From contig JAAFJC010000004.1 in NCBI GenBank assembly GCA_013297925.1, positions 37,287 through 101,286 of the forward strand: a stretch of DNA of 64,000 nucleotides. Reading direction: 5' to 3'. Made by a program: the position numbers and the translations under genes. Source of the stretch: Comamonadaceae bacterium (GTDB lineage Bacteria; Pseudomonadota; Gammaproteobacteria; Burkholderiales; Burkholderiaceae_C). This document shows, in pieces, positions 6,483 through 15,447 of the stretch (the stretch's first letter is position 1; the number at the start of each line of letters is the position of its first letter). The notes under the pieces were generated by a model, which saw only the letters and a program-made list of their open reading frames with translations, had not been told where the DNA came from and did no database searches.

Positions 6483-8240
6483 ATGACCGTATCTCCTGCA
6501 TCTACCTCTCCCGCCGCAACTCCCGAAGCCCCCAAGCCAAGCACTCTGCCCAGCAATTTCCTGCGCCAAATCATCGAGGCCGATCTGGCCAGCGGCAAGC
6601 ATTCGCAAATCATCACCCGCTTCCCGCCCGAGCCCAATGGCTATCTGCACATCGGCCATGCCAAAAGCATCTGCCTCAACTTCGGCTTGGCGCGTGATTA
6701 CAAAGGCATCTGCAATCTCAGGTTTGACGACACCAACCCCGAGAAAGAAGAAAAAGAATACGTCGATTCCATCGTCGATTCCGTGAGCTGGCTCGGCTTT
6801 GGCTGGGGCTCAGAAAAAAGCACAGACCAAGCCCACGCCCTCTTCGCCAGCGACTACTTTGATTTCATGTACCAAGCCGCCGAGCACTTGATTGATCGCG
6901 GCTTAGCTTACGTCGACGAGCAATCCGCGGAAGAAATGCGCGCCAACCGTGGAGACTTCAACACCCCCGGCAAGCCCAGCCCCTATCGCAGCCGCACGCC
7001 TGAGCAAAATTTAGAGCGTTTCAAAGAGATGGCCGGCGGCAAACATGCCGATGGCGCTATGGTTTTAAGAGCAAAAATCGATCTCGCCTCGCCCAACATT
7101 AATTTGCGAGACCCCGCCATCTACCGCATCCGCCGCGCCACGCATCACAACACCGGAGACAAATGGTGCATCTACCCGATGTACACCTACGCCCACCCCA
7201 TCGAAGACGCGCTAGAAGGCATCACGCACAGCATCTGCACCCTAGAGTTTGAAGACCAGCGCCCCTTCTACGACTGGCTCATGGATCGCTTGCTAGAAGG
7301 CGGCCTCATCAAGCAGCAGCCCCGCCAATACGAATTCGCCCGGCTCAACCTCACCTACGTCATCACCAGCAAACGCAAGCTCGCCCAATTGGTGAATGAG
7401 AAAAAAGTGAGCGGCTGGGATGATCCCCGCATGCCCACCATCGTCGGCCTGCGCCGCCGTGGCTACACACCCGAGAGCCTGCAACTCTTCGCCGAGCGCA
7501 TCGGCGTCAGCAAATCAGACAGCTGGATCGACTATTCCACCTTAGAAGGCTGCCTGCGCGAAACCCTAGACCCCATCGCCCCCCGCGCCATGGCCGTGCT
7601 AGAGCCCTTAAAGCTCATCCTCACCAACTGGGAAGAAGCCTTCGGCAGCGCAGAGCACCTAGAAGACTGCAGCGCCCCCGTGCACCCCCACCTCCCCGAT
7701 CTCGGCAAGCGAAACTTCAAGCTGGGCAAAGAAGTCTGGATCGAGCAAACAGACTACGAAGAAATCCCCAGCAAAGGCTTCTTCCGCCTCTTCCCCGGCA
7801 ACAAAGTCCGCCTCAAATACGGCTTCGTCATCGAGGTGATGGGTTCAGTCAAAGACGCAGCCGGCAACATCACAGCAGTCAACGCCAACATCCTCAAAGA
7901 CACCAAATCCGGCACCCCCGGCAGCGACGCAGTCAAAGTCAAAGGTGTCATCACCTGGGTCAGCGCCGCAGATGCAGTAAAAGCAGAAATCCGCCTCTAC
8001 GACCGCCTCTTCAAAACCGAACACCCCGATGCCGGCGGCAAAGACTTCCTAGAAGCCCTCAACGAAGACAGTTTGAAAACCATCACAGCCTACGTCGAGC
8101 CATCGCTAGCCAATGCCAAGCCAGACGACAAATTCCAATTCGAACGCCACGGCTATTTCGTCGCAGATCGCGTGGATCACAAATCAGGCAAAGTAGTCTT
8201 CAACAAGATCACTGGCCTCAAAGACACTTGGGCAAAATGA
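6483..8240 (+). CDS. glnS: glutamine--tRNA ligase
   Basis: FPPEPNGYLHIGHAKSICLNFGLA, DDTNPEKE, VITSKRKL: GlnRS signature. Confidence 0.97.
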   Translation: MTVSPASTSPAATPEAPKPSTLPSNFLRQIIEADLASGKHSQIITRFPPEPNGYLHIGHAKSICLNFGLARDYKGICNLRFDDTNPEKEEKEYVDSIVDSVSWLGFGWGSEKSTDQAHALFASDYFDFMYQAAEHLIDRGLAYVDEQSAEEMRANRGDFNTPGKPSPYRSRTPEQNLERFKEMAGGKHADGAMVLRAKIDLASPNINLRDPAIYRIRRATHHNTGDKWCIYPMYTYAHPIEDALEGITHSICTLEFEDQRPFYDWLMDRLLEGGLIKQQPRQYEFARLNLTYVITSKRKLAQLVNEKKVSGWDDPRMPTIVGLRRRGYTPESLQLFAERIGVSKSDSWIDYSTLEGCLRETLDPIAPRAMAVLEPLKLILTNWEEAFGSAEHLEDCSAPVHPHLPDLGKRNFKLGKEVWIEQTDYEEIPSKGFFRLFPGNKVRLKYGFVIEVMGSVKDAAGNITAVNANILKDTKSGTPGSDAVKVKGVITWVSAADAVKAEIRLYDRLFKTEHPDAGGKDFLEALNEDSLKTITAYVEPSLANAKPDDKFQFERHGYFVADRVDHKSGKVVFNKITGLKDTWAK

Positions 8241-8301: not shown

Positions 8302-8724
8302 ATGCCCATGACTGCCAAGCAACTGCGCGAGCGCGATGCCAAGCGAGACATTGGCGCTGAGCTGCTGCAATCCATCCGCGAAATGAAGGCGGCGAAAGCC
8401 AACCCCGCCCTACCCGCCGCACGCCGCTTCGCCCAGCAAGTGGCACTCGCCTATCCGATGCAGCAAGCGATTCTTTTTGGCAGCCGCGCACGCGGCGATG
8501 CGCATGCGGAAAGCGATGCCGATGTCGCCATCATCCTCAAAGGCCAAGCCGGCCACTTCGTTCACACCAAAATGGCTCTGGATGATATTGCCTACGACAT
8601 CTTGCTAGACACCGGCATCCGCGTGCAGCCCCTGCCCGTGTGGGAGAGCGAATGGCAGCAGCCTGAGCAATACAGCAACCCCAGCCTGCTCGGCAACATC
8701 GCACGCGAAGGCATCCGCCTGTGA
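8302..8724 (+). CDS. MNT-type nucleotidyltransferase (HEPN/MNT pair partner)
   Basis: GSRARGDAHAESDADVAIIL = GSx10DxD nucleotidyltransferase motif. Confidence 0.85.
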   Translation: MPMTAKQLRERDAKRDIGAELLQSIREMKAAKANPALPAARRFAQQVALAYPMQQAILFGSRARGDAHAESDADVAIILKGQAGHFVHTKMALDDIAYDILLDTGIRVQPLPVWESEWQQPEQYSNPSLLGNIAREGIRL

Positions 8725-9113
8725 CCCATCAAGAGCTGATGGCCAAGGCGCAACGCGCCCTCACCAGCGCCCAAACCCTGCTGGACGATCAAGACACCGA
8801 TGGCGCATGCAACCGCGCCTACTACGCCATGTTTGACGCAGCGCGAGCCGCCCTGCTCGCCATTGCTGCGCCCGTGCCACCAGAAATCGCCAAGACCCAT
8901 AGCGGCTTGATCTCAGCGTTCTCATTGCACCTGATCAAAACCGGCAAACTACCCACTGAGCTCGGCAAAGCCCTCAACAAAGTAGAAGGCCTGCGCCTCG
9001 TGTCAGATTACAAAGGCGACAGCATCAGCTTGGAAGACAGCCAATGGGCAGTGGCGCAGGCCACCGTGTTTGTGCAGGAAATTACCAAACTCATTGATTC
9101 ACCATCACTATGA
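8721..9113 (+). CDS. HEPN domain protein (COG1895-like)
   Basis: NRAYYAMFDAARAALLA motif; ATGA-type overlap with MNT gene. Confidence 0.82.
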   Translation: MTHQELMAKAQRALTSAQTLLDDQDTDGACNRAYYAMFDAARAALLAIAAPVPPEIAKTHSGLISAFSLHLIKTGKLPTELGKALNKVEGLRLVSDYKGDSISLEDSQWAVAQATVFVQEITKLIDSPSL

Positions 9114-9165
9114 ATTCAATAGCACCCTGCGCATATTCCATGCCGGCGAGAGCCATGAAATTCGT
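9107..9165 (+). repeat. R2 repeat copy supplying the HEPN stop codon
   Basis: cactatgaattcaatagcaccctgcgcatattccatgccggcgagagccatgaaattcg; HEPN TGA lies within its first bases. Confidence 0.85.
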
Positions 9166-9181
9166 TTAAATCAACCAACCC

Positions 9182-9667
9182 ATGTTCTATCTTGACCTCT
9201 TTGCCGCATTGCATCGCCACCGCGTCGAATACGTCTTGATTGGCGGTTTGGCTGTGGCGCTGCATGGCATTGAGCGCAACACCATGGATATTGATGTCAG
9301 CGTCGTCGTCACGCCGGGCAACATGCAGCATCTCCTGCAAGCCGCGCAAGAGCTCGGTCTCACGCCCATGCTGCCCGTGCCCCTCGCCACCCTCACCGCG
9401 ATAGACACACTCAAAGACTGGCACGCCACCCGCAACCTCCAAGCCTTCTCCCTGCGCAGCGATGCCCTCGCAGGCGTGAGCCTCGATATTCTGCTTTTCC
9501 CGCCCGTCGATCCGCAAGGCATGTGCCAGCGCGCCCTCACCTTGGATGTATCCGGCGTGCCCGTGGTGCTCGCCAGTATTGACGATTTGATCGCCCTCAA
9601 GCAAAGTGTGGCCAGACCGATAGACTTGGCAGATATCGAACACCTCAAGCGCCTGAAAACAGCATGA
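9182..9667 (+). CDS. nucleotidyltransferase family protein (AbiEii/DUF6036-like)
   Basis: YVLIGGLAVALHGIERNTMDIDVSVV: GG..A...G....T.DID motif. Confidence 0.75.
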   Translation: MFYLDLFAALHRHRVEYVLIGGLAVALHGIERNTMDIDVSVVVTPGNMQHLLQAAQELGLTPMLPVPLATLTAIDTLKDWHATRNLQAFSLRSDALAGVSLDILLFPPVDPQGMCQRALTLDVSGVPVVLASIDDLIALKQSVARPIDLADIEHLKRLKTA

Positions 9668-9870
9668 ACACCCCATCGCCCGCACACAACGCGCTGCAAA
9701 CCGACCTGCGCGCCCAACGCACCTACCATGTCAGCGACGCACGCCTGCACGCCTTCGGCCAACTGAACTATGCGCAGCGGCTGCAATGGGTCGAGCAATG
9801 TTCACAATTTGTACGGATGGCGCAGGCGGCTAAGGCAACAGCCCTCGTTCAATCGCGTGTAAGCGCATGA
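9664..9870 (+). CDS. small protein paired with nucleotidyltransferase
   Basis: Overlaps upstream and downstream genes by 4 bp; QRLQWVEQCSQFVRMAQA motif. Confidence 0.6.
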   Translation: MNTPSPAHNALQTDLRAQRTYHVSDARLHAFGQLNYAQRLQWVEQCSQFVRMAQAAKATALVQSRVSA

Positions 9871-11306
9871 CGAACACTAGTAAGCCCATATTCTGGACAG
9901 ATGCCCTTGGTTTAGGCTTAACGCAAGCTGAAGTCGATTTCGTCATTCCTAATCTCCAGTCTGACTTACGACTTTACTTAGATCCATACCTCTTCTATCG
10001 TAGCAAGAACGAGGATTTTCAATCGGTGCACGCGATGTTGCACGAGTTTTTTGAAACAGCCATTTCCGAATTACGTAAAGGTAATGATCAAATAGCGAAA
10101 CGGATGCTAATGTTTCCTGAAGTTAAAGAAATTATGCTGGGTCATAGTGTTGGAACTCATTCAGGAAGAGGTTCTGGAGCACAACGTGGCGCGATTTTGT
10201 TCAACGAGTTGATAGCGAACTCCGAAATCCAAAAAAACGGTATCAAACATATTGCGGAAATGCAATTGATGATTGAGGGCGTTGGGCCTGACTTGATTAG
10301 CGATATGGTTGCAAACATCGCTAAACCATTTTTTATTGATTACACCCAAAGACAATGTGCAATTTACGGGATTCCGATGGAAAAAGGCATCTGCTTAGAG
10401 CACATTTTTGACTGGGAGCGTAAGGTTTGGGATGATCAGCATTTAGAGCTTCCCGTTAATCCTTTAAACATGCAACCCATTTTGCTTGTTCCCAAAACTG
10501 TAGTTCGACGGTTCATCACAATGGATTACAGAGATTTTTGGCAAAGAACATATCGATACATGCTTCGAGAGATGGAAACCGAGCCATCGCTTCAAACCCT
10601 GGGCAAGGAACCACTAGTTAAGTGGAAAGACATCAACGCAAAGTACTCTTTTAGTAAGGCTACTGTCGTTGCTGCTTTACGAAAATCTCCTGAGCTACGA
10701 CTTCAATACGTCAACAGGGTAGAAAACGAAGTGAAGGAGCAATTGAGTTTCGATATTGAAAGCGTAAAAGGCGCTGACGTTCGTATAACTTCTGCTGATG
10801 AATATGCAAACTTATTGAAGCAAGTTCTTCCCGGTCAAGCTGATGCGAAAGCTTATGAAAAACTAGTCTTGCGAATATTGACGCGTCTATTCGTCCCCCC
10901 GCTTGCTGATCCAAAAGAGCAAGTGCGATCCATTGATGGTAGAGAAATAAAAGATATCACTTTCTACAACTCAGCTGGCACTGGTTTCTGGCATGACATG
11001 AAGCTTCAGCACCGCAGTGTTTCTGTGGTCTTTGAAGTCAAAAATATGATTGATTTGGGTAATGAAGAATTCGGTCAATTATCGATGCGGCTAGACGATA
11101 TCAAAGGTACGTTTGGCGTATTAGTTGCTCGCGCCAAAGACAATCTTGATACGCAACGAGCCTATCGGCGCTTGTATTTGGAGCGCAAGATAGTTCTGAT
11201 ATTGACGGACAACGACTTAGTTAGCATGCTCAGATTAAAGCAAATGGGTGACGACCCGAGCTTGTCTCTGAGAGCGTTATACAGAAGCTTTGTTGATGCA
11301 GCTTAA
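9867..11306 (+). CDS. uncharacterised 479-aa protein, candidate PD-(D/E)xK-like nuclease
   Basis: Translationally coupled to upstream ORF; AT-rich composition versus neighbours; C-terminal IKDITFYN...VSVVFEVKNM resembles D...ExK. Confidence 0.6.
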   Translation: MTNTSKPIFWTDALGLGLTQAEVDFVIPNLQSDLRLYLDPYLFYRSKNEDFQSVHAMLHEFFETAISELRKGNDQIAKRMLMFPEVKEIMLGHSVGTHSGRGSGAQRGAILFNELIANSEIQKNGIKHIAEMQLMIEGVGPDLISDMVANIAKPFFIDYTQRQCAIYGIPMEKGICLEHIFDWERKVWDDQHLELPVNPLNMQPILLVPKTVVRRFITMDYRDFWQRTYRYMLREMETEPSLQTLGKEPLVKWKDINAKYSFSKATVVAALRKSPELRLQYVNRVENEVKEQLSFDIESVKGADVRITSADEYANLLKQVLPGQADAKAYEKLVLRILTRLFVPPLADPKEQVRSIDGREIKDITFYNSAGTGFWHDMKLQHRSVSVVFEVKNMIDLGNEEFGQLSMRLDDIKGTFGVLVARAKDNLDTQRAYRRLYLERKIVLILTDNDLVSMLRLKQMGDDPSLSLRALYRSFVDAA

Positions 11307-11314
11307 GGTTGACT

Positions 11315-11866
11315 ATGTCGCACGCAATAACTGGCAATGAAATCCTCCACTTCTGGTTCTCCGAACTCACCGAGAAGCAGCATTTCGCCAAAGACGCGGC
11401 GCTGGATGCGTTGATTGCGCAGCGGTTTGGGGCGACTTTGGAGGCGGCGGCGCGCTGTGAGCTGTTTGGCTGGCGGGCTTCCCCTTCCGGGCGGCTGGCA
11501 GAGATCATTGTGTTGGATCAGTTTTCGCGCAATGTGTGGCGCGACACGCCGCGCGCCTTTGCGCAAGATGCGCTGGCACTCATGCTCGCGCAGGAGCTGG
11601 TGGCCAGCGGCGGCGATGCGAAGCTCTCCACGCGCGAGCGCTATTTTGCCTACATGCCCTATATGCACAGCGAATCGCTGGCCGTGCACCAAGAAGCCCC
11701 GCGCCTATTCGCCCTGCCCGGCCTAGAAAACGCCCTGCGCTTCGAACAACGCCACCTATCCATCCTAGAGCGCTTTGGCCGCTACCCCCACCGCAACGCG
11801 ATCCTGGGGCGAGAATCCACAGCCGAAGAGCTGGCGTTTCTGCAGGAGCCAGGGTCTGGGTTTTGA
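11315..11866 (+). CDS. DUF924 family protein
   Basis: EILHFWFSEL...LAEIIVLDQFSRNVWRDTPRAFAQD...RYFAYMPYMHSESL. Confidence 0.85.
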   Translation: MSHAITGNEILHFWFSELTEKQHFAKDAALDALIAQRFGATLEAAARCELFGWRASPSGRLAEIIVLDQFSRNVWRDTPRAFAQDALALMLAQELVASGGDAKLSTRERYFAYMPYMHSESLAVHQEAPRLFALPGLENALRFEQRHLSILERFGRYPHRNAILGRESTAEELAFLQEPGSGF

Positions 11867-11951: not shown

Positions 11952-12890
11952 ATGCCTAGAAACGCTACCAAAGGCTCACGACAGCGTAAAGCTAAAACTC
12001 TCACAGAAATCGGCCTTTCAGCATGCGCCTTGGGCATCGCTTTCATCATCGTGCCGCTCTTTATGAGCAAGTCATTGATCGCGCAAGCTTTGAGCCCCTT
12101 GAAATACGTGGGCATGCTGGCTTTGCTGATTGGCATTGCCGCTCTGTGGATTGACTGGCTGCGCAAGCGCCAGCCATCTAAGCAAAATTTGGTTGAGGTC
12201 ATCCCCATAGCCCCTAAAGCAGATGCGCCATTTGCCAACGTCAAGGCTCACGCTCCTTCGCCTTCTGGCGTGAGTGAGCATACTCGCGCGCTCTCGCCAG
12301 CCGCTGGTACTGCGCCAGAGCGCGCTACAGCTTGGAGCCCTGCTGTGTTTGAAGCAATTGAATGGCGGCGCTTTGAAGCCGTCTGCGAGGCGCTTTTTGC
12401 GCAAGCTGGTTTTGAGACGAAATCTCAATCGCATGGTGCCGATGGTGGCGTGGACATTTGGCTCTACAGCCGCCATTCGAAAGACTCAGTGGCTTTGATC
12501 GTGCAATGCAAACACTGGCGCGGCAAGGAGGTGGGTGTGAAGGAGCTGCGCGAGTTTCTGGGCGTGATGGCCTCAAACAAGATCATGCGCGGCACTTATG
12601 CGACCACATCAACCTATACATCCGAGGCATTGAAGTTTGCCAACAGCAACGGCATCAGTGCACTCGATGCTAACGGCCTTCTGGCGCTGATTGCCAAACG
12701 CTCTGAGCCGCAGCAGCAGGCATTGCTAGACGTGGCCTACGAAGGCGAATACTGGCGCCCCACCTGCGCCAGCTGCGGCGTAAAAATGCTCAGCCGCACA
12801 CCAAGCAAAGGCGGCGCAGCATTCTGGGGCTGCGCAAACTACCCGCGCTGCCGCTCCATGCTGCCTATGGCAAAAGGTGCGGCGCGTTAG
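11952..12890 (+). CDS. membrane-anchored Mrr-like restriction endonuclease with C-terminal topoisomerase-type zinc finger
   Basis: Two N-terminal TM segments; GADGGVDIWLY...ALIVQCKHW (D...QxK); CASCGVKMLSRTPSKGGAAFWGCANYPRC. Confidence 0.85.
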   Translation: MPRNATKGSRQRKAKTLTEIGLSACALGIAFIIVPLFMSKSLIAQALSPLKYVGMLALLIGIAALWIDWLRKRQPSKQNLVEVIPIAPKADAPFANVKAHAPSPSGVSEHTRALSPAAGTAPERATAWSPAVFEAIEWRRFEAVCEALFAQAGFETKSQSHGADGGVDIWLYSRHSKDSVALIVQCKHWRGKEVGVKELREFLGVMASNKIMRGTYATTSTYTSEALKFANSNGISALDANGLLALIAKRSEPQQQALLDVAYEGEYWRPTCASCGVKMLSRTPSKGGAAFWGCANYPRCRSMLPMAKGAAR

Positions 12891-12911
12891 CCGTGGTTTA
12901 AGAGCGGCCAA

Positions 12912-12968
12912 TCACTATGAATTAGATAGCGTTCTGCGCAGATTCTATGCCGCCGATATGCCAATTTC
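12912..12968 (+). repeat. R2 repeat copy
   Basis: tcactatgaattagatagcgttctgcgcagattctatgccgccgatatgccaattt. Confidence 0.85.
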
Positions 12969-13020
12969 AATGAAGAATCCTGCAATAAATCCAATATGGG
13001 CAAGGTGAATATTTCGGTAA

Positions 13021-13048
13021 ATTTAACTGTATAATTAAACAGTTAAAT
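13021..13048. promoter_or_regulatory. inverted repeat upstream of RelB-like gene
   Basis: ATTTAACTG-tataattaaa-CAGTTAAAT, 9-bp perfect arms. Confidence 0.5.
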
Positions 13049-13099
13049 GATATATTTCAAACCTGATTCCTCCTGTCAATTGAAGCAAACGGCGCTGAT

Positions 13100-13122
13100 T
13101 TGTAGTCACACGAAGACTACAA
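13100..13122. promoter_or_regulatory. putative TA operator
   Basis: TTGTAGTC-acacgaa-GACTACAA inverted repeat about 34 bp before antitoxin start. Confidence 0.5.
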
Positions 13123-13155
13123 TAGAAGCCATTCAATCGACCTTTGGAGCTTCCC

Positions 13156-13437
13156 ATGATCACAGCTGACACCTACGTTCGCGCCCGCATTGACACTGCG
13201 ACGAAAGATCGCGCGGCTGTGGCTTTAGAAGCGATGGGTTTGTCTATTTCTGATGCGATTCGCTTGCTGATGATGCGTGTGGCGGATGAGCGCAAGCTGC
13301 CGTTTGAGATCAAGGTGCCGAACGCGACGACGCGCGCTGCGATGGCGGAAGCTGAGCAGATCATCAAAACGCGCCGCGCGCGCTACAAGAATGCCAAAGA
13401 AGTATTCGATGAACTTGAAAAGCAAACCAGCAAGTAG
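13156..13437 (+). CDS. RelB/DinJ family antitoxin
   Basis: MITADTYVRARIDTATKDRAAVALEAMGLSISDAIRLLMMRV: RelB/DinJ ribbon-helix-helix. Confidence 0.9.
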   Translation: MITADTYVRARIDTATKDRAAVALEAMGLSISDAIRLLMMRVADERKLPFEIKVPNATTRAAMAEAEQIIKTRRARYKNAKEVFDELEKQTSK

Positions 13438-13738
13438 CAAACGCGCTAACCTGCCCCGAGAAATCGATCTTTCCAAAGCTTTCATCAAAGACTGGAAACG
13501 CTTAGAGCATTCTGGCCGCTACGACATGCGCGTGCTCAAAGAAGCGATGACGCTCTTGATCAACAACGATGCGCCGCTCGGCCCAGAATGGCTAGATCAC
13601 CCACTCAAAGGCGATTGGGAAGGCCATCGTGAATGCCATATCGGCGGCGATTTCTTATTGATCTATTCAACAGACGACAGGGAGCCCAGCGGCATGGTGG
13701 TGTTTGTGCGCGCGGGCACGCATTCGGAGCTTTTTTGA
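13409..13738 (+). CDS. YafQ-like RelE-family toxin
   Basis: KAFIKDWKRLEHSGRYDMRVLKEAM...LDHPLKGDWEGHRECHIGGDFLLIYS; overlaps antitoxin gene. Confidence 0.9.
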   Translation: MNLKSKPASSKRANLPREIDLSKAFIKDWKRLEHSGRYDMRVLKEAMTLLINNDAPLGPEWLDHPLKGDWEGHRECHIGGDFLLIYSTDDREPSGMVVFVRAGTHSELF

Positions 13739-13802
13739 AACTTGAAGAAAGCACTAGAAATCGCGGATATCCACAACATGGTCATAAAAGATTGAGTCAA
13801 GA

Positions 13803-13824
13803 ATATTAGCAAATATGCTAATAT
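13803..13824. promoter_or_regulatory. putative TA operator
   Basis: ATATTAGCA-aata-TGCTAATAT, 9-bp perfect arms just upstream of HigB-like gene. Confidence 0.6.
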
Positions 13825-13834
13825 ATAACAACGT

Positions 13835-14161
13835 ATGAACTGGTCAATCAGCTACTACAACGAGAAGGTACGCAAGCGGGTCTATGCGATGCCTACAGAG
13901 ATATTGGCGGACTATGTGCGCCTTACAGATGCAATGAGTTTGTATGGCGCTGATCTACGCATGCCGCATTCGCGGCCGATGGGCGGCGGATTGTTTGAAT
14001 TGCGACCTAAAGGGCGCGAAGGGATTGGGCGGGTGTTTTATTGCACGCAAGTAGGCAAGTCGATCATGATACTTCACTCATTTGTGAAGAAAACGCCTGA
14101 TACGCCAGACCCAGAGCTGCGCATAGCGCGTCAACGTTTAAAGGATGTACAAAATGGCTGA
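13835..14161 (+). CDS. HigB/RelE-like toxin (phage-derived Gp49-like family)
   Basis: GGGLFELRPKGREGIGRVFYCTQVGKSIMILHSFVKKT. Confidence 0.88.
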   Translation: MNWSISYYNEKVRKRVYAMPTEILADYVRLTDAMSLYGADLRMPHSRPMGGGLFELRPKGREGIGRVFYCTQVGKSIMILHSFVKKTPDTPDPELRIARQRLKDVQNG

Positions 14162-14462
14162 TACTGGCTACAAACCTGTGCCGCACAACGCGGCTTTCCG
14201 CAAGTCTCTTCTGGCTAAGCCAGGAGTGAAGCAGGCCTTCGATGCGCTAGAAGAGGAATACACGGCTTTGCACGCCATGCTCGATGCGCGCCAAGCCGCT
14301 GGTTTGACGCAAGCCGATGTGGCCAGCCGCATGGGCACCACCGTGTCCGCCGTCTCTCGCCTAGAAGCATCGCTGCGCAGCGAGAAGCACTCTCCTTCGT
14401 TTGCCACGCTGCGCAAATACGCACAGGCTTGCGGCAAGAAGCTGATGATTCAGATGGTTTGA
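14154..14462 (+). CDS. HigA-like XRE antitoxin
   Basis: ARQAAGLTQADVASRMGTTVSAVSRLE helix-turn-helix, overlaps toxin gene. Confidence 0.88.
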   Translation: MADTGYKPVPHNAAFRKSLLAKPGVKQAFDALEEEYTALHAMLDARQAAGLTQADVASRMGTTVSAVSRLEASLRSEKHSPSFATLRKYAQACGKKLMIQMV

Positions 14463-15390: not shown

Positions 15391-15447
15391 TTGCTATTTT
15401 TTGAATAGCACTCCGCGCAAATTCCATGCCGGCGATATGACGATTTC
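15391..15447 (+). repeat. R2 repeat copy
   Basis: ttgctattttttgaatagcactccgcgcaaattccatgccggcgatatgacgattt. Confidence 0.88.

Follow-up and report, generated by a model that had tools for sequence, protein, structure and literature searches.

A divergent PDC-M36A-type candidate defence nuclease in a variable interval downstream of glnS in a Comamonadaceae bacterium

Introduction

The PDC families of candidate defence genes are predictions made from embedding in defence loci, and most of them are untested (PMC12988326). In the PDC-M36 layout of PADLOC, an M36A gene comes before two small genes that are related to each other and are both M36B by HMM; a search of the literature on PDC-M36 or on DUF8370, the annotation of one M36A-like protein discussed below, found no paper. 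Two sites on mobile elements are of importance for what follows: the psu-int interval of P4, described as an antiviral hot spot by Rousset et al. (PMC9122126), and a site on the portal side of P2, which in P2 itself carries old and tin (PMC9122126).

The present analysis concerns a 479-aa protein encoded in a 64,000-nucleotide stretch of a Comamonadaceae genome, hereafter the window. PADLOC PDC-M36A matches this protein over residues 11-457 (E 5.1e-66), and PHROG 27295, whose function is not known, matches it as well (E 3.4e-52), while neither Pfam and NCBIfam models nor sequence searches of the PDB gave any match. The protein is a divergent, M36B-less member of PDC-M36A, a catalogued but uncharacterised candidate family.

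The locus and its base composition

The gene lies between glnS and a gene that we take to belong to the DUF924 family, with the following layout:

6483-8240, + strand: glnS, left anchor of the interval (ORF call and genome comparison)
9182-9667, + strand: nucleotidyltransferase gene, DUF6036-type, predicted separate unit (161 aa; homologues in relatives are 34-58% identical and come without the nuclease)
9664-9870, + strand: small ORF, partner of the nucleotidyltransferase (68 aa; also follows the nucleotidyltransferase in genomes G114 and G125; no family match in profile scans)
9867-11306, + strand: gene of the 479-aa PDC-M36A-type predicted nuclease, an AT-rich foreign insert (PADLOC PDC-M36A, PHROG 27295, GC 0.426, AlphaFold)
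11309-11866, + strand: DUF924-type gene, right anchor (probable start ATG at 11315; lies 26 bp past glnS in genome G007)

As originally predicted, the three ORFs between 9182 and 11306 are joined by 4-bp ATGA overlaps at both junctions (9664/9667 and 9867/9870), and the last of them is AT-rich. Its GC of 0.426 and GC3 of 0.425 are the lowest in the window, the 39 ORFs of at least 200 aa used for comparison having a GC of 0.569 +/- 0.032 and a GC3 of 0.652 +/- 0.061. The drop is confined to this gene, starting and stopping at the gene's own ends, and the flanking genes are host-like, with a GC of 0.593 for the nucleotidyltransferase, 0.604 for the small ORF and 0.616 for the gene located 3' of the nuclease. 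Because the nucleotidyltransferase and the small ORF have host composition, the 479-aa gene is the sole foreign-looking one of the three; it was horizontally acquired, in agreement with the earlier claim, and probably arrived in the genome alone.

In the window, 3.07 kb separate glnS from the DUF924-type gene, and this interval holds MntA-like and HEPN genes, the nucleotidyltransferase and small ORF, and the nuclease gene. Its content varies: the DUF924-type gene directly follows glnS in G007, whereas G002, from the same genus, has protein kinase and TPR protein genes at this place, and the 17-kb interval of G005 includes, among others, a zeta-toxin-like gene and a GmrSD type IV restriction gene, along with a fragment of the small ORF. 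Downstream of glnS, G066 has first a zeta-toxin-like gene, then the small ORF, then a remnant of glnS and lastly the gene of an ATPase-nuclease. The two anchors are neighbours in five of the examined genomes, so that the hot spot is a local one, limited to part of the family. A glnS 3' remnant, which would be a sign of site-specific integration, was not found in the window. In G066 (locus L038, 4106-4435) and in G005 (locus L119, 5107-5379), the 3' end of glnS is present twice, the extra copy (86-90% DNA identity) lying downstream of the intact gene and right after a small-ORF homologue, a pattern resembling the integration of an element at this end of glnS.

Other features were noted in this region. 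The MntA-like nucleotidyltransferase gene overlaps the HEPN gene by 4 bp (8302-9113), and the two resemble a type VII toxin-antitoxin pair (PADLOC PDC-S09; MntA-like match of 35.6 bits, under the cut-off of 60). Directly downstream of the interval, positions 11952-14462 encode a Mrr_cat protein with a zinc ribbon, a RelB/YafQ pair and a Gp49-HTH (HigBA-like) pair. A dispersed repeat occurs at 9118-9149 and 15404-15435, one copy sitting between the HEPN gene and the nucleotidyltransferase gene; its core, GCATATTCCATGCCGGCGA, has 133 copies in the genome when up to two mismatches are allowed (control, 0).

The nucleotidyltransferase and small ORF pair

The first gene of the three had been called AbiEii-like. 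It does encode a nucleotidyltransferase, with DUF6036 as its best family (32.5 bits for a cut-off of 23.6), but AbiEii scores 20.1 bits, under its cut-off of 22.5, so that the name is a loose one. An AbiEi winged-helix antitoxin was looked for upstream of 9182-9870 and is not present; the MntA-like nucleotidyltransferase and the HEPN protein are found there. Homologues of the nucleotidyltransferase exist in 14 of 150 related genomes, and in G114 and G125 they are followed by a small-ORF homologue, the nuclease being absent. Genome comparison thus points to the nucleotidyltransferase and small ORF as a unit separate from the nuclease, perhaps a toxin-antitoxin-like pair.

The original prediction had read all three genes as one translational unit, and it is true that the two ATGA overlaps suggest translational coupling here. 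However, cooperation of the nucleotidyltransferase, the small protein and the nuclease in a three-gene system is very improbable. Relatives, either of the whole 479-aa protein or of a single domain, are present in 59 loci; none of these has the nucleotidyltransferase and one has the small ORF, namely L038 (genome G066), which has the C-terminal module alone in common with the window protein. The three genes thus show no conserved association, a lack that had been named as grounds for giving up the unit. The existence of the pair without the nuclease in G114 and G125 and the sharp change of base composition at the small ORF/nuclease junction also argue against such a system.

Relatives of the 479-aa protein

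Relatives were drawn from genomes, plasmids, viral contigs and E. coli. Peptide-pattern scans with the 479-aa sequence alone retrieved no relative in the genome or viral contigs, while scanning the viral contigs with the alignment of relatives led to 33 loci; phage records gave no match. Every relative found is at most 30% identical to the window protein (21-30% for the 37 that were aligned), and because none exceeds 30%, conservation of the protein's own neighbourhood is unreadable.

M36B genes are found beside M36A in seven relatives, which are all seven members of one clade. The 479-aa protein branches off deeply as sister to this clade (support 100/100) and all other full-length relatives in the tree are without M36B. 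No M36B was found in the window by tblastn, or elsewhere in the genome by HMM; M36B may have been lost from this lineage or never present in it, the tree being compatible with either. The 68-aa small ORF was considered as a diverged M36B and rejected, as it gave no match. On plasmids of Leptolyngbya and Methylobacterium, an M36A-M36B-M36B array lies directly downstream of umuDC-like genes (L030, 3112-7167, and L031, 4676-8110).

Domain organisation and the C-terminal nuclease fold

The alignment and the structural model divide the protein as follows:

9894-10556, + strand: N-terminal domain, residues 10-230 (conserved; no similar fold in the PDB)
10557-10796, + strand: linker, residues 231-310, poorly conserved (alignment and model)
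10797-11261, + strand: predicted C-terminal PD-(D/E)xK nuclease domain, residues 311-465 (weak Mrr_cat/PDDEXK_3 matches in relatives, model topology, marginal Foldseek matches)
10953-10955, + strand: codon of D363, an Asp predicted to bind metal (conservation of at least 95% outside a degenerate clade)
11034-11042, + strand: codons of E390-V391-K392, the ExK motif (alignment conservation)
11076-11078, + strand: codon of Q404, a conserved Gln in the helix that follows the ExK strand (alignment and model)

In 31 of the 37 aligned relatives, conservation reaches at least 95% at D363, E390, K392, N393 and Q404, and the D...ExK core proposed earlier had been placed on the right residues (D363, E390 and K392). 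In the AlphaFold model of the whole protein (33 sequences; pLDDT 84.5, pTM 0.87), a helix (327-342) is followed by three strands (346-356, 359-368 and 386-391), a second helix (399-406) and a last strand (416-420), i.e., the alpha-beta-beta-beta-alpha-beta core of PD-(D/E)xK proteins, so that structure prediction bears out the fold that had been expected. D363 sits on strand 359-368, E390 on strand 386-391 and Q404 on helix 399-406; alignment and model agree in placing the Asp and the ExK motif on consecutive core strands. When 11 relatives were scanned singly, Mrr_cat was matched in six and PDDEXK_3 in three, weakly in both cases, the E. coli relatives having Mrr_cat scores at or under the cut-off.

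Foldseek comparison of the whole chain with the PDB gave marginal results, none with an E below 0.001, and the best matches were mostly restriction-endonuclease-like, with FokI (probability 0.89), Nt.BspD6I, MspJI and RPB5. The jaw domain of RPB5 has a restriction-endonuclease-like fold; these matches are not evidence of a link with RNA polymerase, the nuclease-like fold being merely common to both. Weak matches to SPARTA/APAZ (probability about 0.1) were dropped, given that the N-terminal domain alone matched nothing. Taken together, alignment and model indicate that the C-terminal domain has a PD-(D/E)xK nuclease fold in which the putative catalytic residues are intact.

This is not the case in a degenerate clade of six relatives, which have lost the D, E, K and N, and for five of them the Q as well, and have kept all N-domain residues. 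Because one clade has kept the N-terminal domain and lost all catalytic residues, nuclease activity is not needed everywhere. On viral contigs (L076-L082), the clade with an intact M36A N-domain and lost PD-(D/E)xK residues adjoins one integrase type.

The N-terminal domain and module swapping

Sixteen alignment columns within residues 10-230 are at least 95% conserved; these nearly invariant residues make up a glycine-rich loop and acidic residues, and include D33, P40, E85, G92, S94, G100, G104, D142, S145, D146, P209 and K210. The domain was modelled alone with good scores (46 sequences; pLDDT 89, pTM 0.88) and Foldseek found nothing similar to it in the PDB, the best probability being 0.05.

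Both halves of the protein are also found in other combinations. In 15 further relatives, a different PD-(D/E)xK module, recognisable by GPVDFK...E-x-K...Q, comes after the M36A N-domain. The C-terminal module, in turn, is present on proteins of 700 aa (L038, which has weak AAA/NACHT matches) and 688 aa (L050), and on a Mrr protein (L039). Such swapping suggests a sensor or recognition N-domain with exchangeable cutters. We tentatively put forward a bolder proposal, which is possible but on balance doubtful: that the N-terminal domain, rather than the nuclease, is the functional core, an undescribed domain, either ligand-sensing or catalytic, whose fold the PDB lacks, and that it represents a new class of phage-defence sensor. 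In favour of this, two nuclease types are joined to it, and its 16 residues are kept where the nuclease residues are lost.

Several individual loci illustrate this diversity. The second PD-(D/E)xK type (GPVDFK...ExK...Q), with SASK as C-terminus, follows the M36A N-domain in L046-L049, L052-L055 and L083-L088. In L051 (5108-6495), a TIR-Mrr gene overlaps by 4 bp a gene for a stand-alone C-terminal nuclease module, forming a possible TIR-nuclease pair. On two Acinetobacter plasmids (L032 and L033), the M36A N-domain stands by itself in short proteins of 304-319 aa, close to genes for an HTH regulator and an ImmA/IrrE metallopeptidase on the opposite strand.

Where the relatives are found

P4-like satellites carry two of the E. 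coli relatives, in both cases between psu/delta and the integrase gene, and a third follows the delta gene of an element related to P4 satellites. The E. coli relatives include WP_021574992.1, WP_247142595.1 and WP_001212348.1. On viral contigs, the relatives of L056, L057 and L061 follow a P2-type portal gene (terminase and portal being confirmed by Pfam for L056), and others adjoin integrases. Genomic relatives are found in or beside restriction loci, as read from the sequence: one lies between apparent hsdM and hsdS genes in a type I R-M operon (L035) and one is followed by genes that are probably type III mod and res (L036). No methylase lies beside the 479-aa gene in the window. With the PDC-M36A match and relatives in defence hot spots, a candidate defence role for the 479-aa protein, which had been anticipated, is well supported by comparative evidence.

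Possible modes of action

We favour a reading, with about equal prospects of being right or wrong, in which the 479-aa protein is a single-gene, two-module nuclease directed against phages or mobile elements. The N-terminal domain would recognise a cue from the invader, either a DNA feature or another ligand, and would license or position the C-terminal PD-(D/E)xK domain, which would cut DNA with a divalent metal via D363, E390 and K392. DNA cutting is a prediction, a sensor or recognition role of the N-terminal domain is suggested by its combination with different cutters, and the target would presumably be invading rather than host DNA.

The main rival to direct restriction is abortive infection, in which the N-terminal domain senses infection and frees the nuclease on host DNA, so that the infected cell dies or stops growing. 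Sharing of the C-terminal module with probable P-loop ATPase sensors (L038 and L050) and with the TIR-Mrr partner of L051 is typical of triggered systems; the joining of the N-terminal domain to two different PD-(D/E)xK modules would suit a sensor whose effectors can be exchanged, and no modification enzyme travels with the 479-aa gene. This pattern is, however, also explained by an N-terminal domain that recognises DNA, and we consider abortive infection possible but less probable than direct restriction. Since many relatives are carried on plasmids, on satellites and at prophage edges, the protein might also be a mobile-element nuclease without a defence role, acting for example in recombination, packaging or the selfish maintenance of satellites. 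This is unlikely: the sites that the relatives occupy are exchange points for accessory, mostly defensive, cargo (PMC9122126), and relatives also lie within chromosomal restriction loci.

The candidate family PDC-M36A hereby gains testable content, namely a putative nuclease active site and relatives in the E. coli P4 hot spot that lend themselves to cloning in laboratory strains, as well as a conserved N-terminal domain found with two different nucleases. This domain, whose fold has no PDB match, is the interesting part of the protein; if it is a sensor, a new trigger mechanism would come within reach once its ligand was found. The locus also calls for caution, in that overlap of reading frames is no proof of a single system within a cargo hot spot: the overlap here ties a foreign gene to a resident pair.

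Comparison with known systems

The upstream gene resembles DUF6036 nucleotidyltransferases, scoring above the cut-off of that family, and differs from AbiEii in being under the cut-off and in having no AbiEi partner in view. For the nuclease itself, likeness to PDC-M36 (M36A + M36B) lies in the full-length M36A match and the grouping with the M36B-bearing clade, but the window is without M36B and the protein forms a separate deep branch, with no more than 30% identity to any relative. The solitary M36A-like proteins of P4/P2 elements, one of which is annotated DUF8370 in E. coli 23CRST009, share with it the two-domain layout, the catalytic residues and the single-gene arrangement; in contrast, the E. 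coli members are 28-29% identical to it and belong to another clade of the tree. With Mrr and PDDEXK_3 proteins of type IV restriction, it has in common the D...ExK...Q pattern, the fold order and, in relatives, weak HMM matches, but the window protein matches no Pfam model and its N-terminal domain is unrelated to known recognition domains. Finally, FokI, MspJI and Nt.BspD6I have a cutting domain of the same restriction-endonuclease-like fold, although the Foldseek scores are marginal and the recognition parts do not correspond.
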